Origin: Oceanicaulis alexandrii DSM 11625 | GTDB taxonomy: Bacteria; Pseudomonadota; Alphaproteobacteria; Caulobacterales; Maricaulaceae | Assembly (NCBI RefSeq): GCF_000420265.1 | Contig: NZ_ATUP01000001.1 | Span: 1 to 64,000, forward strand | Reading direction: 5' to 3' | DNA: 64,000 nucleotides | In this document: positions 16,395 through 26,278 of the stretch, piece after piece | How positions within the stretch are numbered: position 1 is the stretch's first letter | Layout of the letters: every line of letters starts with the position of its first letter | Translations under genes and position numbers: made by a program | Notes under the pieces: model-generated | Databases searched by the model: none | Seen by the model: the letters and a program-made list of their open reading frames with translations, nothing else | What the model was told of the DNA's origin: nothing

Positions 16395-17402
16395 CTAATC
16401 GAGCCAGGGCGGGGTCGGCAGGCCTTTTTCACGCAAGAAGTCGGGGTTGTAGAGCTTGGACTGATAGCGTGATCCATGGTCGCAAAGAATGGTCGTGATC
16501 GTGTGACCCGGCCCCATCTTGCGGGCCAGGCGGACCGCGCCGGCGATATTCACGCCAGCTGAACCGCCCAGACACAGGCCTTCTTCCATCACGAGATCAT
16601 AGAGAATGCCTAGCGCTTCCTCATCCGGAATGCGGAAAGCTTCATCGATTTGAGCGCCTTCCAGATTGGCGGTGATGCGGCTCTGTCCGATGCCTTCGGT
16701 GATTGAATTGCCTTCAGCTTTCAGCTCGCCATGGGCGTAATAGCCGTATAGCGCCGCGCCGCCGGGATCTGCGAGGGCGATCTTGATGGCGTCATTCTTG
16801 GCTTTCAGCGCATCTGACACGCCCGCAATCGTGCCGCCGGATCCGACCGCCGCCACAAAGGCATCCACCTTGCCGCCGGTCTGCTCCCAGATTTCAGGGC
16901 CTGTGGTCTGGGCGTGGGCGCGACGGTTGGCGGTGTTGTCAAACTGGTTCGCCCAGATCGCGCCATTGGGTTCAGTCGCGTTCAGCTCTTCCGCCAGCGT
17001 GCCTGAATAGCGCGCATAATGATTGGGGTTGGAATAGGGGACGGCATCCACTTCGATCAGCTTGGCGCCCATCAGGCGGATGGCGTCCGCTTTCTCCCGT
17101 GACTGGGTGCGCGGAAATACAATCACCACCTTGTAGCCCAAAGCGCGTCCGACCATGGCCAGGCCGATGCCGGTATTGCCGGCGGTGCCTTCCACAATGG
17201 TCCCGCCCGGTTTGAGCGCGCCGCTGGCTTCCGCTTCGCGTATGATGCCAAGCGCCGCACGATCCTTCACCGATCCGCCCGGATTGAGGAACTCGGCCTT
17301 GCCCAGGATTTCACATCCTGTTGCGTCAGACACCTTGTTTAGACGAAGGAGCGGCGTATCGCCGATGAGATCAATGACAGAGCGGGCGGGGCGGGGGATC
17401 AT
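16395..17402 (-). CDS. cysK: Cysteine synthase (O-acetylserine sulfhydrylase family)
   Basis: 335 residues, fold-type II PLP enzyme. The PLP lysine is K46 in NPGGSVKDRAA, the substrate-binding loop EGTAGNTGIGLAMVG is present, and the phosphate loop is AVGSGGTIAG. The motif order agrees with cysteine synthase; sequence alone does not cleanly separate CysK from CysM or cystathionine beta-synthase-like enzymes. Ribosome site GAGG lies upstream of ATG 17402. It converges with the binding-protein gene (9 bases between stops) and is divergent from the chrR-like gene, with the ECF-like promoter of the latter in the 141-base gap. Confidence 0.88.
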   Translation of the reverse strand: MIPRPARSVIDLIGDTPLLRLNKVSDATGCEILGKAEFLNPGGSVKDRAALGIIREAEASGALKPGGTIVEGTAGNTGIGLAMVGRALGYKVVIVFPRTQSREKADAIRLMGAKLIEVDAVPYSNPNHYARYSGTLAEELNATEPNGAIWANQFDNTANRRAHAQTTGPEIWEQTGGKVDAFVAAVGSGGTIAGVSDALKAKNDAIKIALADPGGAALYGYYAHGELKAEGNSITEGIGQSRITANLEGAQIDEAFRIPDEEALGILYDLVMEEGLCLGGSAGVNIAGAVRLARKMGPGHTITTILCDHGSRYQSKLYNPDFLREKGLPTPPWLD

Positions 17403-17488: not shown

Positions 17489-17518
17489 TGATCCGTTTTC
17501 GTCGCGTCTGCGTAAGAA
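17489..17518 (+). promoter_or_regulatory. Group-11 ECF (RpoE/ChrR-type) promoter candidate of the chrR-like operon
   Basis: TGATCC at 17489-17494, an 18-base spacer, and TAAGAA at 17513-17518, 25 bases before the chrR-like ATG. From established work on Rhodobacter sphaeroides, RpoE recognises a TGATCC -35 and a TAAGA-like -10, so both hexamers match. A second copy with the same spacing heads the convergent operon at 26249-26278. Confidence 0.7.
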
Positions 17519-17543
17519 GATACGAACAATTGGAGTGACCGAA

Positions 17544-18203
17544 ATGCATACGCTTGACGCAGCATGGATGGTGGACGTGGCCAGCGGCGCAGCGCCCAAA
17601 GCGGTGCAGGTTCTCGCCGCCTGCCACGCAGAGATGAATGCGAGCGCCTACACCTTGCTGCATCAGGCTGAGCACGTCATGGGCGGTCTGCTTGAAGACA
17701 CAGAGCCGGCCGCCATGAATGTCGGCGCCTTTGAGGCTTTGTCTCAAAAACTGGGCGGCTTGTCGCATGCTCCCGCTACTCAGCGTCCGCGTCTGTCTGA
17801 TCAATTGAACCTGGACCTGCCCGATACTCTCAAGCGTGTCTTGAGCTACCATCCGCATCCCATCTGGATGAACAAGATGGGCGGAATTCAGGAAATGCCG
17901 CTAGAGCCCCTGGAAGAAGATGGCGTTCATGTGCGCCTTCTCAGCCTGCCGTCCGGGCGCGGCGTCGCCGAACACACTCACCAGGCTGAAGAGCTGACCC
18001 TGGTGTTGAAGGGTGGTTTCAATGATGGCCACGCGGATTATCGCGCGGGCGATGTCTGTCATGCCGATCCGTCCCTGACGCATAATCCACGCGCTCATGC
18101 GGACGGTCCTTGCATTTGCCTGTCGGTTGAAATGGGACGCCTGCAGTTCACACACCCGGTCATCTCACTGGCCAGCCGCGTCCTGGGCTGGGACCGGTCC
18201 TGA
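17544..18203 (+). CDS. ChrR-like cupin protein with degenerate anti-sigma domain
   Basis: 219 residues aligning by eye with ChrR, the zinc-dependent anti-sigma factor that releases RpoE on singlet oxygen. The C-terminal cupin (about 105-205) keeps the metal ligands: EHTHQAEE (His, His, Glu) and the later His in LTHNPRAH. The N-terminal zinc anti-sigma region keeps the helix pattern and His28, but the H-x3-C-x2-C motif reads HAEMNASA, so both cysteines are missing. No sigma-factor gene is adjacent, although rpoE-chrR pairs are the rule. ATG 17544 is favoured by GGAG 8 bases upstream. First gene of a four-gene run. Confidence 0.8.
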   Translation: MHTLDAAWMVDVASGAAPKAVQVLAACHAEMNASAYTLLHQAEHVMGGLLEDTEPAAMNVGAFEALSQKLGGLSHAPATQRPRLSDQLNLDLPDTLKRVLSYHPHPIWMNKMGGIQEMPLEPLEEDGVHVRLLSLPSGRGVAEHTHQAEELTLVLKGGFNDGHADYRAGDVCHADPSLTHNPRAHADGPCICLSVEMGRLQFTHPVISLASRVLGWDRS

Positions 18204-18225
18204 TCCTTTGTTTGGAGGTTTCACC

Positions 18226-18927
18226 ATGCTGCGACTGATCATGACGACCTTGAGCGCAGGCGCTGTGCTGACGAGCGCCGCATGGGGCTCCGCTGATAAC
18301 GCGCCTTCGCCCACTCCCATGCCGAACGCGGGCGAGAGCATTGTCTTTGATGTCTATCGCGATGGCGACAAGCGTATGGGCACGCACGCCGTCCATTTCG
18401 AGCAGGACGGGGATGATTTGCTGGTCTCCGTCGACATCGAGCTTCGCGCCGGTCTGGGGCCGATCACCGTCTTTCGCTATGAGCACCAATCTACTGAGCG
18501 CTGGCGTGAAGGCCAGCTGATCGGACTGAACGCAGAAACCTTCAAGGATGGCGAGACCTATCGTGTGCAGGCTCAAACCACCAATGAGGGTCTGGATGTG
18601 GAGGGTGAAACCCCGGATGCGGGCGCAATTTCACTCGAGTTTCCGCTCTCGGTTCTGCCCAGCTCGCACTGGCGCGGCTATCGCACAGGCGCCTACGACA
18701 TCCTGAACACCGAACATGGCAGTGAGCTGGATGTGACGGTGGATTATCTGGGCGAGGAAATGCTGGCGGCCGATGGCGCGCGCATCACCGCCCATCGCTA
18801 TCGGCTCTCCAGCGATCTGACCGTAGACCTGTGGTATGACGAAAACGGTCGCTGGGCCGGCTGCCAGTTTGAGGCGAGGGGCCAGACCATTCGCTATGAA
18901 CGCCGTGCTGATCCTTTGAGGGGCTGA
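18226..18927 (+). CDS. Exported DUF6134-like protein
   Basis: 233 residues with a probable signal peptide (MLRLIMTTLSAGAVLTSAAWGSA). The mature part looks all-beta: ESIVFDVYRDGDKRMGTHAVHFEQ, then paired strands ending in TVDLWYDENGRWAGCQFEARGQTIRYERR. The pattern (a short periplasmic beta protein measuring sugar- or lipid-like modification with a W-Y-D-x-x-G-RW motif) fits the DUF6134 family; function is not known. A strong GGAGG precedes the ATG. Its stop overlaps the next ATG by one base (TGATG), so it is co-translated with the photolyase gene, placing it in the light/oxidative-stress operon. Confidence 0.65.
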   Translation: MLRLIMTTLSAGAVLTSAAWGSADNAPSPTPMPNAGESIVFDVYRDGDKRMGTHAVHFEQDGDDLLVSVDIELRAGLGPITVFRYEHQSTERWREGQLIGLNAETFKDGETYRVQAQTTNEGLDVEGETPDAGAISLEFPLSVLPSSHWRGYRTGAYDILNTEHGSELDVTVDYLGEEMLAADGARITAHRYRLSSDLTVDLWYDENGRWAGCQFEARGQTIRYERRADPLRG

Positions 18928-20456
18928 TGCCTGCGCTCAGACTTGTTCTCGGCGATCAGCTCAGCGCATCCATCGCCAGCCTAGCTGATTATAGCGATGG
19001 CGATTTGATACTGATGGCGGAGGTCGCTGAAGAAGCGTCATACGTCCCTCATCACGCCAAGAAGATCGCCTTCATCTTCTCCGCCATGCGCCATTTCGCT
19101 TCCAGCCTGGAAGGGGGCGGCAAGTCCGTGCGCTATGTGAGGTTTGACGATCCGGACAACACCGGCGCGTTGAAATCAGAAGTGGCTCGGGCGCTTGAGA
19201 CACAGGCCTTTGATACGGTCGTCACCACCTCTCCGGGCGAATATCGCTTGAAGACGGATATTGAGAGCTGGTCGGACGCTTTTGATATACCCGTTCAAAT
19301 CCGTCGCGACGACCGTTTCATCTGTTCGCTGGACCGGTTTGACGCGTGGGCGGACGGACGCAAGCGCCTCACCATGGAGTATTTCTATCGCGAGATGCGG
19401 CGGGAGACGGGTATCTTGATGGAGGGCGACAAGCCCGCTGGCGGGCAATGGAATTTTGATCAGGACAACCGCAAATCACTGCCCGCTGATGTGACCCTTC
19501 CCGAGCGCGCCTGGATCGAGCCTGATGCGATGACCCGGCAGGTCATTGAGCTGGTCGCGGAACAGTTTCCTGATCAATTCGGCGATCTTGAACCCTTTGG
19601 TTACGCCGTCACGGCCGAAGATGCGGACGCGCAACTGGACTGGTTTTTACACAACGGCCTGCCCAGCTTTGGCGATTACCAGGACGCCATGAAACAGGGC
19701 GAGGCCTTCCTGTTTCACTCTGTCATCGCGCTCTATCTCAATATCGGCCTTCTCGACCCACTCATGGCCTGCCGAAAGGCGGAGGCGGCCTATGAAAAGG
19801 GCGACGCCCCGCTGAACGCGGTGGAAGGCTTCATTCGGCAAATCCTGGGCTGGCGTGAATATGTTCGCGGAATCTACTGGCGGTTCATGCCGGACTATCT
19901 TGAGCGCAATGCGCTTGAGGCCAAGCGTCCGCTGCCTGACTTCTACTGGACAGCGGACACCGACATGGCGTGCGTGCGTGATGTCGTCACCACGACCCGC
20001 AAACACGCCTATGCGCATCATATTCAACGGCTGATGGTGACAGGAAACTTCGCGTTGGTTGCCGGTATTGATCCCAAGGCGGTCAATGACTGGTATCTCG
20101 CCGTATACGCGGACGCCTATGAATGGGTGGAAGCGCCCAATACCCACGGCATGGCGCTCTATGCCGATGGCGGTTTGATGGCGACCAAGCCGTACGCCGC
20201 ATCAGGAAGTTATATCAACAAGATGAGCGATAGTTGCAAATCCTGCAGCTATGCAGTGACCAAGAAAAACGGGCCGAAAGCGTGCCCGTTCAACTATCTG
20301 TACTGGAACTTCCTGATCGAAAATCGGGAACGGCTGAAGGGCAATCACCGTTTATCTATGATCTACAAGACGCTGGATCGGATGACGGACGAAAAGACCG
20401 ATGCCATCGCCGCAGATAGCCAACGGTTTTTCAAACGCATCGGCATTGCCGAGTAA
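18927..20456 (+). CDS. FeS-BCP family (6-4) photolyase/cryptochrome (PhrB-like)
   Basis: 509 residues of the iron-sulfur bacterial cryptochrome and photolyase family. The four [4Fe-4S] cysteines are at 349 (DMACVRDVV), 437 and 440 (DSCKSCSYAV) and 453 (KACPFNY). This is the same spacing as Cys350/438/441/454 of Agrobacterium PhrB, which repairs (6-4) photoproducts with FAD and a lumazine antenna. The N-terminal alpha/beta domain (LRLVLGDQLS) and the FAD-domain motif FIRQILGWREYVRGIYW are present. Its presence next to a CPD photolyase gene gives both UV-lesion repair classes in one locus. Confidence 0.92.
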   Translation: MPALRLVLGDQLSASIASLADYSDGDLILMAEVAEEASYVPHHAKKIAFIFSAMRHFASSLEGGGKSVRYVRFDDPDNTGALKSEVARALETQAFDTVVTTSPGEYRLKTDIESWSDAFDIPVQIRRDDRFICSLDRFDAWADGRKRLTMEYFYREMRRETGILMEGDKPAGGQWNFDQDNRKSLPADVTLPERAWIEPDAMTRQVIELVAEQFPDQFGDLEPFGYAVTAEDADAQLDWFLHNGLPSFGDYQDAMKQGEAFLFHSVIALYLNIGLLDPLMACRKAEAAYEKGDAPLNAVEGFIRQILGWREYVRGIYWRFMPDYLERNALEAKRPLPDFYWTADTDMACVRDVVTTTRKHAYAHHIQRLMVTGNFALVAGIDPKAVNDWYLAVYADAYEWVEAPNTHGMALYADGGLMATKPYAASGSYINKMSDSCKSCSYAVTKKNGPKACPFNYLYWNFLIENRERLKGNHRLSMIYKTLDRMTDEKTDAIAADSQRFFKRIGIAE

Positions 20457-20468
20457 GGACTGAACACC

Positions 20469-21272
20469 ATGACAGCGCCTTCAATACCGACGCCTGCTGA
20501 TGGCGTGTGCTGGCTCACCGGCGCGAGTTCCGGGATCGGCGAAGCCTTGCTCGCCGATCTGGTCAAGGAGGGCTGGCGCGTCGCGATCTCGGCCCGCAGC
20601 GCGGACAAGCTCGATGCGCTGTCACGCCGCCATCCCGGTCAGGTCTTCGCCTATCCCGTGGATATCAGTGATGATCGCGCAGTCTCCGCCGCAGTCGCTC
20701 AAATTGAATCTGACCATGGACCGATCGCACGGGCGATCCTCAATGCCGGCGTCTATATCTCGATCGACGCGGAAAACCCACGCTTTGAGGATTACGCCAA
20801 GACGTTTGACGTCAACCTGAAGGGGGCGGCCGCCTGCGTTTGCGCGCTCACGCCGCTTTTTTGTGAGCGCGGCAAGGGCCAGCTTGTGATCGTCTCATCC
20901 GCCACGGCCTTTGGCGGCATGCCCACCGCGACCGCCTATGGCGCGACAAAAGCAGGGCTTTTGAACATGGCCGAGGGGCTCGCCATTGAGCTTCATCGCT
21001 ATGGGGTGAAAGTCCAGTGCGTCACGCCCGGGTTTGTCGACACCCCGGCTCAGGATGACAACGCCTTCCCCAAACCCTTCATGGTGAGCGCGGAAACCGC
21101 TGCCAAGCGCATCTGCAAAGGGATGAACCGTAAAGGGTTCGAGATCACCTTTCCCAAACGCTTCACCTGGATGTTGAAGCTGATCTACGCGCTTCCGCGC
21201 GATTGGCACATCGCACTGGTCCGAAAACAAACGAGCTGGGACAAGCCGCCGGAAACAAAAAAGCCCGCATGA
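20469..21272 (+). CDS. Short-chain dehydrogenase/reductase
   Basis: 267 residues. The NAD(P)-binding TGASSGIG motif is at 17-24, the catalytic Tyr157/Lys161 lie in AYGATKAG with Ser at the preceding SSATAFG strand, and NAG appears as LNAGVY. The C terminus (RFTWMLKLIYALPRDWHIALVRKQ) has an amphipathic or membrane-associating look, as in SDRs acting on lipids. Twelve bases separate it from the photolyase gene, and a terminator follows. SDRs of this kind are found with CFA-synthase/DUF1365/FAD-oxidoreductase genes in ChrR regulons, so a role in modified-lipid metabolism is plausible but unproven. Confidence 0.88.
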   Translation: MTAPSIPTPADGVCWLTGASSGIGEALLADLVKEGWRVAISARSADKLDALSRRHPGQVFAYPVDISDDRAVSAAVAQIESDHGPIARAILNAGVYISIDAENPRFEDYAKTFDVNLKGAAACVCALTPLFCERGKGQLVIVSSATAFGGMPTATAYGATKAGLLNMAEGLAIELHRYGVKVQCVTPGFVDTPAQDDNAFPKPFMVSAETAAKRICKGMNRKGFEITFPKRFTWMLKLIYALPRDWHIALVRKQTSWDKPPETKKPA

Positions 21273-21284
21273 TGCGGGCTTTTT
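21257..21284. terminator. Bidirectional terminator shared by the two convergent operons
   Basis: AGCCCGCAT / ATGCGGGCT stem (21262-21280) flanked by six A residues on one side and five T residues on the other, so it can work on both strands. It overlaps the end of the SDR gene and lies just before the CFA-synthase stop. Confidence 0.85.
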
Positions 21285-21290
21285 CGTGTC

Positions 21291-22535
21291 TTATCTGGCG
21301 CGGCTAATGGTGAACTGGCCGACATCGATACGGCCGGTCCGAAAGCCCGCCTCGCAATAGGCGAGGTAGAAATCCCACATGCATTTGAACCGGTCATCAA
21401 ACCCCATGGGCTCAATGGTCGGCCACGCGTCGTCGAAGCGCTCTTTCCAGAGCTTGAGCGTGTCCGCGTAATCAAGGCCGAACTGATCGGTTTTCACCAG
21501 ATCAAGCTTCGCAGTTTCAAAGCAGGCTTCCAGTTTCTCCACGCTCGGCATCATGCCGCCGGGGAAAATATAACGCTGGATGAAGTCCGCGCGCTTTGAA
21601 TAGGTTTCAAACAGATCGTCGCGAATGGTGATGATCTGGAGCCCCGCCTTGCCGCCGGGCTTGAGAACCGCAGACACCTTATCGAAAAAGCTGGGCCAGA
21701 ATTCCTGACCAACCGCTTCAAACATCTCGATCGAGGCGACCCGGTCGTAAACGCCCGTCTCGTCGCGATAGTCTTGCAGCTTGATGGTCACCTTGTCTGA
21801 GAGGCCGAGCCGCTCCATCCGCGCCAAAGCGTAATCACGCTGCGCCGGAGACAGGGTCAGGCAGGTGACGTTCGCGCCGATCTGGCCGGCGGCGAATTCT
21901 GCGAACCCGCCCCAGCCGCAACCGATTTCCAACACATCATGATCGGGCTGAAGATCCATGGAGCGGGCGAGGGCAGCGTATTTCTCGGTCTGCGCGTCTT
22001 TCAGGGTTTGCGCCCCATCGGTGAACCGCGCTGACGAGTACGTCATCGTTTCGTCCAGCCACAGCTCGTAAAAGCTGTTGCCCAGATCGTAATGCGCTTC
22101 GATGTTCTTGCGCGCCTGGCTCTTCGTATTGGCGCGCCGCAAATGGTACAGCCAGTGGAAGAACCGTGTGATCGGTCCGCCGCGCGTAATATGGGCCATT
22201 TCATCGAGATTGGCGGAAAACACGGTCAGGACGGCCGCCAGATCCGGCGTCGTCCAGTCGCCGTCCATATAACTTTCGGCAAAGCCGACATCGCCGCCCG
22301 AAATCACCTTTCGGACGACAGCGTAATTGGCCAGCTCAATGATGGCGTTAGGGCCTTCACGTTGGCCTTCAAACTGAACGGCGCGACTATCAGGCAGCAC
22401 AACGGTCAGTGTCCCGACTTTGAGTTTCAACAACATGCGCAGGGTTAAACGCACCCCCCGCGGCACGCCCTTGAGGCGGTCGATCACAGCCGGAGAGTCA
22501 GCCCGCACCAGCGGGGTGGCGGCGAAGTCGGTCAT
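21291..22535 (-). CDS. cfa: Cyclopropane-fatty-acyl-phospholipid synthase-like methylase
   Basis: 414 residues, class I SAM methyltransferase acting on unsaturated acyl chains of phospholipids. SAM motif VLEIGCGWGGF at about 200-210, the YDLGNSFYELWLDETMTYS segment, and the VASIEMFEAVG motif with the acidic residue of the active site are all present. The N-terminal ~110-residue domain is of the CFA type. Could make cyclopropane rings or, as UfaM does in Rhodobacter sphaeroides, add a methyl group on the way to furan fatty acids; sequence reading alone does not decide. GGAG 5 bases upstream of ATG 22535. Last gene of the minus-strand operon. Confidence 0.88.
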   Translation of the reverse strand: MTDFAATPLVRADSPAVIDRLKGVPRGVRLTLRMLLKLKVGTLTVVLPDSRAVQFEGQREGPNAIIELANYAVVRKVISGGDVGFAESYMDGDWTTPDLAAVLTVFSANLDEMAHITRGGPITRFFHWLYHLRRANTKSQARKNIEAHYDLGNSFYELWLDETMTYSSARFTDGAQTLKDAQTEKYAALARSMDLQPDHDVLEIGCGWGGFAEFAAGQIGANVTCLTLSPAQRDYALARMERLGLSDKVTIKLQDYRDETGVYDRVASIEMFEAVGQEFWPSFFDKVSAVLKPGGKAGLQIITIRDDLFETYSKRADFIQRYIFPGGMMPSVEKLEACFETAKLDLVKTDQFGLDYADTLKLWKERFDDAWPTIEPMGFDDRFKCMWDFYLAYCEAGFRTGRIDVGQFTISRAR

Positions 22536-22582
22536 TGGCGGCTCCGTCGGTTACGCATTTGCGTGTAACGTCAAGTTTACAA

Positions 22583-23404
22583 TTAATCGGGCGCGGCGCC
22601 AAATTCAGCGCGCGAGGGTCGGGAAACGGGATGCGCCATTGAGGCGTCTGCGGGTGGCGGGTTTCGCTTGTGATAGACCGCGCCCTTGATCCACAACCTC
22701 AAGGCCTCCCAGTGAATGGCCAGGATGGTTTTGAGGCTTGAGAACGGTTGCGTGAGAAACAAACGCGCGAGCCGCGCGGTGCTGAGCGGCGCGCGCTTCA
22801 TGGCCATGGTCGCCAGAAAATCCGGGCCATCCTCACGCTGTTTGAAAATCGTCAGATGGAAGGTGTCATCAGGCTCGCGCAGCGTGAACTCATAGCGTCC
22901 GCCCAGATCGAAGAAGGGGGAGACGTGAAAGATCTTCTCTGCGTCGTGGGTTTGGCGTGACCCCTCACTGGCCTTCGCCACATAACAATGGCTGTCGCCA
23001 AAGGTATTGTGGACTTCATAGATCAGGCCCTTGAGCTGACCTTCAGCGTCATGGGCGAAATAGATCGACAAGGGGTTGAATTGGTATCCCAGCACACGCG
23101 GAGCGCAAAGCAGGGAGATCTGGTCTTGTTCATCCACCTCGACCCCGGATGACGCAAACAGGTTGCGCGCCCAGGACGACAGATCGCCGCCGTCGCGCGG
23201 ACCGAGATCCTTGGGATAAAAGCTGTAGAGGTTGAACCGCCCGACAGAGAAGAGCGCGCTGACCTGATCCGCCGCCTTGAGTTGGTCGAGGTCCAGAAGA
23301 ACTGACGCCAACCTGTAGCTGAACCGATGCAGGAAGGGCGCCCGGCGTTCATGCACCGTCTTGCCGATGTAAAGGCAGCCCGCAGGTTGAGTGTCGCGCG
23401 TCAT
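22583..23404 (-). CDS. DUF1365 family protein
   Basis: About 273 residues. Family features are the N-terminal CLYIGKTVHERRAPFLHRFSYRLASVLLDLDQL, the LLCAPRVLGYQFNPLSIYF motif and EVHNTFGDSHCYV. DUF1365 proteins almost always lie between a FAD-dependent oxidoreductase and a CFA-synthase-like gene, as here; I know of no firm assigned reaction. The start at 23404 lies two bases past the upstream gene's stop codon; an ATG at 23422 adding six residues and overlapping that gene is possible. Forty-seven bases separate it from cfa. Confidence 0.88.
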   Translation of the reverse strand: MTRDTQPAGCLYIGKTVHERRAPFLHRFSYRLASVLLDLDQLKAADQVSALFSVGRFNLYSFYPKDLGPRDGGDLSSWARNLFASSGVEVDEQDQISLLCAPRVLGYQFNPLSIYFAHDAEGQLKGLIYEVHNTFGDSHCYVAKASEGSRQTHDAEKIFHVSPFFDLGGRYEFTLREPDDTFHLTIFKQREDGPDFLATMAMKRAPLSTARLARLFLTQPFSSLKTILAIHWEALRLWIKGAVYHKRNPPPADASMAHPVSRPSRAEFGAAPD

Positions 23405-23405
23405 G

Positions 23406-24767
23406 TTATTCAGCCGCGACATGGGCTTTCAGACGCGACGGCTCAGCCGATCGCGCCCAGGCGCCGCCATCCACATCGCCTTCTGCAAAACTCCACGGAA
23501 TCTGACCGCCCAAGCGCAAGGCCACTCTCAAACCGGCGCGCAAGCCATCTTCGTGGAACCCATAGCCCAGCCAGGCGCCCGCGAACCAGGTCTTGCGTAC
23601 GCCCTGGATGGAATTGAAGATCCGCTGCGCGGCGAGGGCCGGCGCATTGAATTGCGGATGGTCGTACTGATAACGGCCAAAGACGGTTTCAGGTCGGGGC
23701 TGACGGACGGGGTTCAGCGTCACAAAGAGCGGCCTGTCTGATCGAATGCCTTGCAAACGGTTCATATCGTAGGTGACAGCCGCTTCGTCTCCGCCTTCGC
23801 GCAGATAGGTCCAGGCCGCTTGAGCGCCCTTACGAGCCGGGGTGAGGGTCGTATCGCAATGCAAGACCGCTTCGTTTGCGCCATACCGGATCGCCCCCAG
23901 GAGCTGACGCTCATCCTCATCCGCGTCCGTCAGCAAGGACAGGGCCTGATCGGAATGGCAAGCGAGGATGACTTCATCGAATTGGTGCGTCTTCCCGTTT
24001 TCATCTTCAAGGGTAACGCCGTCTGTTGTGCGGCGGAGGGCGGTGGCCTGCGGCTGAAATTCGACGCCAGCCTCGATCAGGTCCGCTTCCAGCTTTTGTA
24101 CATAGGTGCGGCTCCCGCCTTTGACCGTATTCCATTTGGGTCGGCTGGCGTGCATCAGGCGGTGGTTCTTGAAAAAGCGCACGAAGGTTTCAGCGGGATA
24201 GTCCGACATCCCCGCTTCAGATGTGGACCAGATCGCAGCCCCCATGGGCAGGAGGTATTGCGAACGGAACGCGTCCCCCATTCCCAGACGGTCCAGATAC
24301 TGACCCAGGCTCAAGCCCTCAAGCCCGCCAGTCTCCAGATCTTTCTGGGCGGCTTTGTTAAAGGTCAGGATATCGCGCAACATGCCCAGATAGCGCAGAT
24401 TGAACAGGTTGGAGGGATCGGCGAACAGGCCCTTGAGCCCATTTGAAGACCACTCGAACCTCCGGTCCAGGCTGAAACCGAAACTCATATCAGTGCGATG
24501 GCTGTCGACCCCGAGATGCTCGAACAAGGCAATCAGATTGGGGTAGTTGAGCGGATTGAAGACGATGAAGCCCGTATCCACGTCAATCTGCGCGCCATCA
24601 TAATCAATGCGCACAGTGTTGGCGTGTCCGCCCAGCCGATCGCGCTTTTCAAAGACTGTGACGTCATGGACGTTGCGCAACGCCCAAGCGGCGCCGAGAC
24701 CGGAAACGCCCGCGCCGATCACAGCGATGCGCAAGGGGCGGGAATGCAAAGGCGTAATCGGGCTCAT
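23406..24767 (-). CDS. FAD-dependent amine-oxidase-like oxidoreductase of the CFA/DUF1365 cluster
   Basis: 453 residues. The dinucleotide-binding GAGVSGLG is at 18-25, followed by FEKRDRLGGHANTVRI, and the C-terminal FAD motif is seen in TWFAGAWLGYGFHEDGLRAGLRVA. The sequence belongs to the flavin amine oxidase superfamily subgroup found beside DUF1365 and CFA-synthase genes. In Rhodobacter sphaeroides enzymes of such a cluster (UfaD, UfaO) desaturate and oxygenate methylated acyl chains to furan fatty acids; whether this gene is an ortholog of either needs alignment. Its ATG overlaps the photolyase stop by four bases. Confidence 0.85.
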   Translation of the reverse strand: MSPITPLHSRPLRIAVIGAGVSGLGAAWALRNVHDVTVFEKRDRLGGHANTVRIDYDGAQIDVDTGFIVFNPLNYPNLIALFEHLGVDSHRTDMSFGFSLDRRFEWSSNGLKGLFADPSNLFNLRYLGMLRDILTFNKAAQKDLETGGLEGLSLGQYLDRLGMGDAFRSQYLLPMGAAIWSTSEAGMSDYPAETFVRFFKNHRLMHASRPKWNTVKGGSRTYVQKLEADLIEAGVEFQPQATALRRTTDGVTLEDENGKTHQFDEVILACHSDQALSLLTDADEDERQLLGAIRYGANEAVLHCDTTLTPARKGAQAAWTYLREGGDEAAVTYDMNRLQGIRSDRPLFVTLNPVRQPRPETVFGRYQYDHPQFNAPALAAQRIFNSIQGVRKTWFAGAWLGYGFHEDGLRAGLRVALRLGGQIPWSFAEGDVDGGAWARSAEPSRLKAHVAAE

Positions 24768-26206
24768 GCGGAGTCCTTGATCTTTTCAAAGGCGGCGAGG
24801 GCGCGTTTGCGCGCCTCACCATGGTCGACGATCGGCTCGGGATACGTTTCCCCCAAGCGAACACCGGCTTGTCTTAGAACCGACGCATCCGCCATCCAGG
24901 GGGCATGAATCGCCTTGTTTGGTAATTTCGTCAGCTCTGGTAACCACGTACGAAGATAGTCGCCATCCGGATCAAACTTTTCTGACTGTCCGACAGGATT
25001 GAAAACCCGGAAATACGGAGCGGCGTCCGCGCCTGACCCGGCCGTCCACTGCCAGGACGCTGAATTGCTCGACAGGTCGGCGTCAACCAGCGTATCCCAA
25101 AACCAGGCTTCGCCTTCACGCCAGTCAATCATCAGATCCTTGATCAGGAAGCTGGCCACGATCATGCGGACGCGATTATGCATCCAGCCTGTAGCCCAAA
25201 GCTCTCGCATGCCAGCATCCACGATCGGATACCCTGTGCGCCCCCGGCGCCAGGCCTCAAGATCTTTCTCCTGTCCCGTCCATTCAAATCCGTCAAATTT
25301 TGACTGGAAGTTCGCCTCGGGCAGGTCGGGGAAATGATAGAGCAGGTTATAGCTGAACTCACGCCAGGCGATTTCGCTGAGATAGGTGTCAGCGCCCTCT
25401 GATTGCGCGTGATCAGAGCGTTTGACCGCGTGCCAGACCTGTCTGGGGCTGATCTCGCCGAAATGCAGATGCGGCGATAATTTCGAAGTGCCATGCTCAG
25501 CGGGCAGGTTCCGGCGATCTGAATACGCAGTGACGCTGTGCTGGAGAAACTGACCCAGCCGGCCATGGGCCGCCGCCTCGCCAGGCGTCCAGTTGTCATC
25601 GAGCCCGCCTGACCAGTCAGGCTTGGTCGGCAAGAGCTTCAAGGCTTCCAGCGCGCAACCGCCTTGATAGTCTTGAAACCTCAGCGCGTCCGGGCGAGCG
25701 GTCGGTTCGGACGGCGCATGACCCGCTTTCAGGGAGCGCCAATAGGGCGTGAAAACCTTGTAGGGCGCGCCGGCTTTCGTCGCGATATCCCACGGCTCCA
25801 CAATCAGCGAACCATTGAATGAGCGGGCTTTCACATCGGCCGTTTTCAGCGCTGATTTGATGGATTCATCGCGCTTGCGCGCCCAGGGCTCATACTGGCG
25901 ATTCCAGAACACCGCGTCAGCGCCGACATCCTCAATCAGCGCCTCGAGGCAAGACTGCGCAGGGCCTTTCTGGAAGATCAACCGCCCTCCCAGCTGCTCG
26001 ATATCGCGAGCCAGTGATGTGAGCGAATGATGCAGCCACCACCGGCTCGCGCCGCCAGGCTTCCACGCACCCGGTGCGTCATCATCGAGGATATAGACAG
26101 GCAGAACAGGCGCGCCCGTGGCCGCGGCGGCTTGCAAGGCGGGGTTGTCGGCCAGCCTAAGGTCTTGTTGAAACCAGACAATTACAGGCTTTTTCAAATC
26201 AGTCAT
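24764..26206 (-). CDS. phrA: Class I deoxyribodipyrimidine (CPD) photolyase
   Basis: 480 residues. An N-terminal antenna domain (VIVWFQQDLRLADNPALQAA) and a C-terminal FAD domain with TAYSDRRNLPAEHGTSKLSPHLHFGEISPRQVW are present, as is the signature region WMHNRVRMIVASFLIKDLMIDWREGEAWFWDTLVDADLSSN. WQWTAGSGADAAPYFRVFNP follows. Repairs cyclobutane pyrimidine dimers using light. ATG 26206 (MTDLKK) gives the normal N terminus; an ATG at 26221 is also in frame. It is the first gene of the minus operon, with an ECF-like promoter 43 bases upstream, and is translationally coupled to the FAD oxidoreductase. Confidence 0.93.
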   Translation of the reverse strand: MTDLKKPVIVWFQQDLRLADNPALQAAAATGAPVLPVYILDDDAPGAWKPGGASRWWLHHSLTSLARDIEQLGGRLIFQKGPAQSCLEALIEDVGADAVFWNRQYEPWARKRDESIKSALKTADVKARSFNGSLIVEPWDIATKAGAPYKVFTPYWRSLKAGHAPSEPTARPDALRFQDYQGGCALEALKLLPTKPDWSGGLDDNWTPGEAAAHGRLGQFLQHSVTAYSDRRNLPAEHGTSKLSPHLHFGEISPRQVWHAVKRSDHAQSEGADTYLSEIAWREFSYNLLYHFPDLPEANFQSKFDGFEWTGQEKDLEAWRRGRTGYPIVDAGMRELWATGWMHNRVRMIVASFLIKDLMIDWREGEAWFWDTLVDADLSSNSASWQWTAGSGADAAPYFRVFNPVGQSEKFDPDGDYLRTWLPELTKLPNKAIHAPWMADASVLRQAGVRLGETYPEPIVDHGEARKRALAAFEKIKDSA

Positions 26207-26248
26207 GGGTTTGCAATGCACGCGTTCTGGGACGAGGTATGGTGTCAG

Positions 26249-26278
26249 GCTATACGGTGATTTATATCCTCTGGATCA
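26249..26278 (-). promoter_or_regulatory. Group-11 ECF-type promoter candidate of the photolyase/CFA operon
   Basis: On the minus strand TGATCC (26278-26273), 18-base spacer, TATAGC (26254-26249), 42 bases before the photolyase ATG. The -35 and spacing are identical to the chrR-like promoter at 17489-17518; the -10 is a weaker match. Confidence 0.6.

Follow-up and report, generated by a model that had tools for sequence, protein, structure and literature searches.

Among described systems, the closest to the locus reported here are those of group 11 extracytoplasmic function (ECF11) sigma factors, which are cited throughout from the accessible parts of the papers. Chromatin immunoprecipitation sequencing (ChIP-seq) in Pseudomonas syringae yielded the ECF11 consensus TGATCC-N16-CGTA (PMC5507510), Shewanella has ECF11 promoters of the TGATCC/CGTA type with mapped starts (PMC4336711), and Table 2 of PMC5507510 counts photolyase, short-chain dehydrogenase/reductase (SDR), ufaD, ufaO and cfa/ufaM among the orthologues of the ECF11 core regulon. 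We analyzed a 64,000-nucleotide stretch of Oceanicaulis alexandrii DSM 11625 (contig NZ_ATUP01000001.1, positions 1 to 64,000; hereafter the window), from an Oceanicaulis-like genome of 3.0 Mb. Positions 17489-26278 hold an island of two convergent four-gene operons, one of them headed by a ChrR-like gene without an adjacent sigma gene (the orphan). Because the photolyase, SDR, ufaD, ufaO and cfa/ufaM belong to the core regulon, the island is mostly known content, and most of it is a compact version of the known ECF11 regulon. On balance, we favor the reading that the sigma-E of this genome runs both operons, and that the orphan ChrR supplies the feedback lost at rpoE-chrR.

The island and its promoters

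The features of the island are as follows.
17489-17518, plus strand: ECF11-type promoter of the plus operon, TGATCC, N16, CGTA (TAAGAA -10), from pattern search and orthologue conservation
17544-18203, plus strand: orphan ChrR-like protein without an adjacent sigma gene, with anti-sigma-like N-terminal helices and a cupin C-terminus
18226-18927, plus strand: DUF6134 protein (Pfam), predicted all-beta with an EipB (DUF1849)-like fold
18927-20456, plus strand: photolyase (DPRP, PF04244; Pfam) with a Cys-rich C-terminus, of what we take to be the FeS-BCP class
20469-21272, plus strand: SDR, from Pfam and profile matches
21258-21284, no strand: bidirectional terminator-like hairpin between the operons, from hairpin prediction
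21291-22535, minus strand: CMAS/CFA-family methylase, probable UfaM (Pfam; gene order as in PMC7380195)
22583-23422, minus strand: DUF1365 protein, probable UfaO (Pfam; PMC7380195)
23406-24767, minus strand: FAD-dependent amine-oxidase-family protein, probable UfaD (Pfam; PMC7380195)
24764-26206, minus strand: cyclobutane pyrimidine dimer (CPD)-type photolyase with ATG at 26206 (GTG at 26221 as alternative), from open reading frame (ORF), Pfam and profile matches
26249-26278, minus strand: ECF11-type promoter of the minus operon, TGATCC, N16, CGTA (TATAGC -10), conserved upstream of CPD photolyase orthologues

The ORFs and Pfam matches agree with the preliminary description, which had named eight genes in two convergent operons. 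The plus operon runs from the ChrR-like gene through DUF6134 and the FeS-BCP photolyase to the SDR, and the minus operon from the CPD-type photolyase through the flavin amine-oxidase-family protein and DUF1365 to the CMAS-family methylase; genes inside each operon are tightly packed or overlapping, the largest gap being 47 nucleotides (nt). The nearest named relative of the FeS-BCP photolyase is in Oceanicaulis sp. MMSF_3324 (81% identity). The single bidirectional terminator proposed at the junction corresponds to a 12-pair terminator-like hairpin with A- and T-tracts at 21258-21284, flanked by both stop codons (21272 and 21291); terminator-like sites across the whole region number 7, not above shuffles (8.4).

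The promoter elements were likewise located on their respective strands, with TGATCC (17489-17494), 18 nt and TAAGAA (17513-17518) before the plus operon, and TGATCC (26278-26273), 18 nt and TATAGC (26254-26249) before the minus operon, and TGATCC-N16-CGTA describes both more exactly. A genome scan with the literal pattern TGATCC-N17-19-TAAGA of the preliminary description returned 4 sites but missed the minus-operon promoter; the orthologue-derived consensus works better. Genome-wide, TGATCC-Nk-CGTA has 14 sites at k=16 and 5, 2, 4, 3 and 8 sites at k=15, 17, 20, 21 and 22, respectively, from which about 0.0005 sites are expected per 200-nt single-strand stretch (true sites included). Wrong spacers served as the control in place of the reversed pattern (0 and 2 matches), which seemed unfair because it contains CTAG, a word that is rare in such genomes. 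The pattern itself is not rare, with 21 genome sites at N15-17 against 15 at control N20-22, and matching promoters could reflect chance or common ancestry without shared control. We regard this as scarcely credible, since N16 is enriched over the other spacings and recurs in 41 of the 41 fetched orphan promoters despite differing spacer sequences. Shared control of both operons is well supported.

Six of the 14 N16 sites fall in no forward ORF of >150 amino acids and have an ORF start 46-107 nt downstream, counted from the T of TGATCC; three of the six overlap a possibly spurious reverse-strand ORF. These six precede the two island operons and genes for fasciclin, AhpC/redoxin-family, RpoH-like sigma and SOUL proteins, the RpoH-like sigma being named by resemblance (Pfam gives sigma-70 regions 2 and 4). 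The remaining eight lie inside an ORF of >150 amino acids on either strand. One TGATCC-N16-CGTA site falls within the CPD photolyase gene (24949-24974, minus strand), some 207 nt upstream of the FAD gene, and two relatives (L007 and L048) have similar sites; the site is probably due to conserved protein coding and is possibly an internal promoter.

The group 11 sigma factor expected elsewhere in the genome was found: a single ECF11-like sigma gene, with a chrR next downstream, has R. sphaeroides RpoE as its best PDB match (2q1z, E=1e-42). The earlier assignment of the TGATCC/TAAGA type to ECF11 recognition is matched by the published consensus (PMC5507510, PMC4336711), and that of a photolyase and CFA-type genes to the ECF11 regulon by Table 2 of PMC5507510. 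Another ECF sigma might read the motif instead, as ten matches to Sigma70 region 2 occur in the genome, several of them ECF-sized. This is very improbable, since at the chosen cut-off the ECF11-like sigma aligns with only three of the other matches (32-33% identity), the motif equals the published ECF11 consensus (PMC4336711, PMC5507510), and it stands before rpoE itself in many genomes of the order that lack the orphan (38 of 59).

Conservation of the hexamers in orthologous loci, a further expectation of the preliminary description, was borne out at orthologous places among 80 loci fetched with the FeS-BCP photolyase as query. All eight genes recur in the same layout in L007-L010, and likewise minus the SDR match in L011 and L041; L013 and L026 match only the ChrR-like, DUF6134 and photolyase genes, and L048 has most genes and no ChrR-like match. 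The motif is present upstream of the ChrR-like gene in nine of nine such loci, window included, and it precedes the CPD photolyase operon both in the window and in five of five island relatives with upstream sequence. Two relatives were searched for the N16 pattern; both have fasciclin sites, and one of them (G083) has rpoH and CPD photolyase sites too. L013, a metagenome-assembled genome titled Candidatus Sulfopaludibacter, bears a Hyphomonas-like island, and its label may be wrong.

The orphan ChrR and rpoE across the order

Three features had been overlooked in the preliminary description: the fit of the lipid genes to ufaD-ufaO-ufaM, the zinc-less and sigma-unlinked ChrR paralogue, and the rpoE-chrR promoter region of this genome, in which neither regular expression (regex) nor matrix detects the motif. 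The order was sampled with 150 genomes; a sigma match at E 1e-15 is present in 131 of them, and any ChrR matching the orphan profile in 109. We examined 101 rpoE loci, one per genome and our own genome included (L005 among the loci), leaving out G033, G092, second copies (G112, G040 and others) and all weaker sigma matches. An orphan is a match, among the matches listed, to the profile of an alignment of 21 orphans (A1) that does not lie beside rpoE; G093, G103, G078, G040 and G089 were counted as orphan-less despite further weak matches. By this definition, at least 42 of the 101 genomes, among the matches listed, have an orphan away from the sigma gene, namely 41 fetched loci (three of them probably identical to L009, L010 and L026) and the window. 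The N16 motif lies upstream of all 42 (40 TGATCC and 2 TGATCT; 39 and 2 among the fetched loci), and DUF6134 follows in 40 (same strand in 39 of the 41 fetched), both exceptions belonging to one genus, g30.

The motif at rpoE shows the inverse distribution. By regex, it precedes rpoE in 1 of the 42 orphan-bearing genomes versus 38 of the 59 others; a matrix built from 30 island promoters, with rpoE promoters kept out of the training set and the 99% shuffled level as threshold, finds it in 2 of 42 (both g30) versus 43 of 59. Because the island-trained matrix scores rpoE promoters, the island and the autoregulated rpoE promoters are of one kind. The median sigma-chrR gap is 105 nt (12 to 143) in orphan-bearing genomes versus 2 nt (-58 to 115) in the others, and the linked ChrR carries CxC in 0 of 41 versus 31 of 59. 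HxxxCxxC occurs in the linked ChrRs of 27 or 24 of the 59 orphan-less genomes, varying with trimming. In the ChrR tree, the 21 aligned orphans form one side of a branch (support 90) and the linked ChrRs of orphan-bearing genomes fall inside another (support 99). The orphan has apparently been lost in G039, G041, G021 and G080. In the two g30 genomes (L270 and L265), the orphan has no adjacent DUF6134 match, rpoE has the motif by matrix, and one of them has no chrR beside rpoE, so that g30 is a possible intermediate. Zinc cysteines are missing from many sigma-linked ChrRs of the order (L118-L237), including 20 of the 38 whose rpoE carries the motif.

The orphan of the window resembles R. sphaeroides ChrR over both domains (E=3e-18) and scores 121.8 bits (121.2 in a second run), under the curated TIGR02451 (ChrR) cut-off of 124.5. 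Its model (pLDDT 88.9) has helices at 6-14, 19-31 and 33-51 and a short one at 62-69, followed by the cupin barrel. Its six top PDB matches, all ChrR chains, align with it across both domains at a root-mean-square deviation of 5.7-7.5, and the two domains are therefore not placed as in ChrR. When aligned with R. sphaeroides ChrR, the anti-sigma domain has lost its two zinc-position cysteines; the ZAS signature Hx3Cx2C is absent from the window protein and present in 0 of 21 sequences of A1, and CxxC is absent from the N-terminal 60 residues of all 41 fetched orphans. The metal ligands HxH, E and H of the cupin are kept and are invariant in A1, the C-terminal cupin of the window protein carrying HxH..E..H and CIC. 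HxH..E with CxC occurs in 21 of 21 A1 sequences, and CxC in 33 of the 41 fetched orphans; the eight without it form part of family f2 (L173, L266-L268 and L271-L274). As aligned, the sigma-linked ChrR of the same genome has lost all four zinc ligands of its anti-sigma domain. A comparison of helix-I contacts between sigma region 4 and the ChrRs gave no clear pairing and was discarded, as its ChrR column was unreliable (regex mishits). Among the papers listed by literature searches, which cover few subscription papers, no title or abstract opening describes an orphan or second ChrR or such a system in these genera, and the passages of PMC8999054 that were searched hold nothing on orphan ChrRs.

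In the mechanism that we propose, the genome's own ECF11 sigma-E would transcribe both operons from the TGATCC-N16-CGTA promoters, so that photorepair, furan-fatty-acid synthesis and the putatively exported DUF6134 protein would be induced jointly by singlet-oxygen-like stress. The first gene of the plus operon would provide a second ChrR without the zinc site, accumulating only while sigma-E is active, which most likely rebinds sigma-E and closes a negative feedback loop. The rpoE-chrR operon, apparently no longer autoregulated in this lineage, could not provide such feedback. The best reading of these observations is that the orphan has taken over from rpoE-chrR the negative feedback on sigma-E. 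The promoters and their conservation, the sigma gene, the missing motif at rpoE and the lost zinc ligands are visible in the sequence, and the ChrR-like fold of the orphan is a model prediction; transcription by sigma-E, the stress signal and anti-sigma activity of the orphan are inferred.

Several observations weigh against this reading. The sigma-2-binding helix IV is short and lies in or beside the lowest-confidence part of the orphan model; by eye, it is unrecognizable in family f2 orphans and weak in several others. The orphan lacks zinc cysteine ligands in its anti-sigma domain, and inhibition by R. sphaeroides ChrR needs the zinc of that domain (PMC6852236). In the sigma tree, all 42 orphan-bearing genomes (three families) belong to a single group of 54 (support 89, unstarred), within which the regex motif stands at rpoE in 1 of 42 genomes with the orphan versus 4 of 12 without it; independent pairs number 3 with starred branches and 6 with all, too few for significance. 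The inverse association looks largely like one old rearrangement that was long kept; as most of it goes back to this single event, it does not demonstrate linked evolution statistically. Additionally, 21 genomes have neither the orphan nor the rpoE regex motif (5 of them score by matrix), and loss of autoregulation therefore does not require an orphan. On the promoter side, the motif is missing before the photolyase operon of L048 and 7 distant loci, redoxin and SOUL N16 sites occur in 0 of the 2 relatives searched, and G034 has no N16 site before a CPD photolyase.

The main rival explanation gives the orphan a role without sigma binding: the island would be a plain compact ECF11 regulon, and the ChrR-like cupin would no longer bind sigma-E and would act, for example, in ChrR turnover or on oxidized lipid. 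We hold this to be possible, if somewhat doubtful. It accords with the missing N-terminal CxxC in 41 of 41 orphans, the reduction of helix IV in many of them (by eye), the retained cupin motifs (HxH..E with CxC in A1, CxC in most fetched orphans) and the same-strand DUF6134 gene next to 39 of 41, whose product as modelled resembles EipB and weakly RseB and LolA/LolB. However, a pure cupin enzyme would not need the invariant Asp and Gly of helix I (21 of 21), the majority motif GG.LLE after helix III (A1) or helices I-III as they are modelled with high confidence, and zinc-free anti-sigma domains inhibit sigmas in other groups (PMC7406223). With feedback through the orphan still the preferred reading, we tentatively suggest that a clade within the order that holds Oceanicaulis and Hyphomonas has split the ECF11 circuit into a sigma-E with a zinc-less ChrR, a pair no longer driven by sigma-E, and a second zinc-less ChrR that only active sigma-E produces, from the head of photorepair and lipid operons. 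Such a split would assign stress sensing and feedback shut-off to different ChrR paralogues and leave the anti-sigma zinc unused.

Lipid genes, DUF6134 and the neighborhood

The lipid genes of the minus operon match R. palustris RPA2571-2570-2569, i.e., ufaD-ufaO-ufaM, in family and order (PMC7380195), with genes of the flavin amine-oxidase family, DUF1365 and CMAS following one another in this order. By family and gene order, they are probably the furan-fatty-acid genes ufaD-ufaO-ufaM; the CMAS-family methylase scores far under the Cfa equivalog cut-offs. The DUF6134 protein has an N-terminus that resembles a signal peptide (by eye) and an all-beta model (pLDDT 87.4), whose best PDB match is DUF1849 of Brucella (E 4e-6), a structure that we take to be EipB, with weaker matches to VioE, YmcC, RseB and LolA/LolB. 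A role in envelope lipid or protein binding is plausible from this model.

A pyridoxal-phosphate-dependent enzyme (PF00291, cysteine-synthase-like; 16395-17402) adjoins the ChrR-like gene divergently. A relative stands at this position in all 8 named island loci and in 29 of the 41 fetched orphan stretches and is absent in family f4; the island lies in a conserved neighborhood.

Comparison with described ECF11 systems

The order holds a large natural group with two ChrRs, neither with zinc cysteines, and a sigma operon seemingly without self-feedback. The island also places probable furan-fatty-acid genes beside a ChrR paralogue, and furan-fatty-acid gene products are reported to be necessary for ChrR turnover (PMC6852236).

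P. syringae PSPTO_1043/1042 shares the TGATCC-N16-CGTA consensus by ChIP-seq, and the phrB locus PSPTO_1121-1114 brings together phrB, SDR, flavin amine oxidase, an RSP_1090 homologue and cfa; in contrast to our genome, rpoE is judged autoregulated there, and the accessible text mentions neither an orphan ChrR nor DUF6134 (PMC5507510). Shewanella RpoE2-ChrR is alike in having phr (photolyase-related) with SDR and ybgA-phrB-cfa under TGATCC/CGTA, with two starts mapped, and differs in the motif upstream of rpoE2-chrR and in its separate loci, an orphan ChrR going unmentioned in the accessible text (PMC4336711). The sigma-E/ChrR system of R. sphaeroides shares the sigma class, promoter pattern, photolyase, ufaD, ufaO, ufaM/cfa, SDR and rpoH target (PMC6852236, PMC7380195, PMC5507510). 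There, a zinc-binding ChrR is encoded with rpoE, whereas here rpoE-chrR has no motif, both ChrRs are without zinc cysteines, and one of them stands unlinked at the head of a repair operon.

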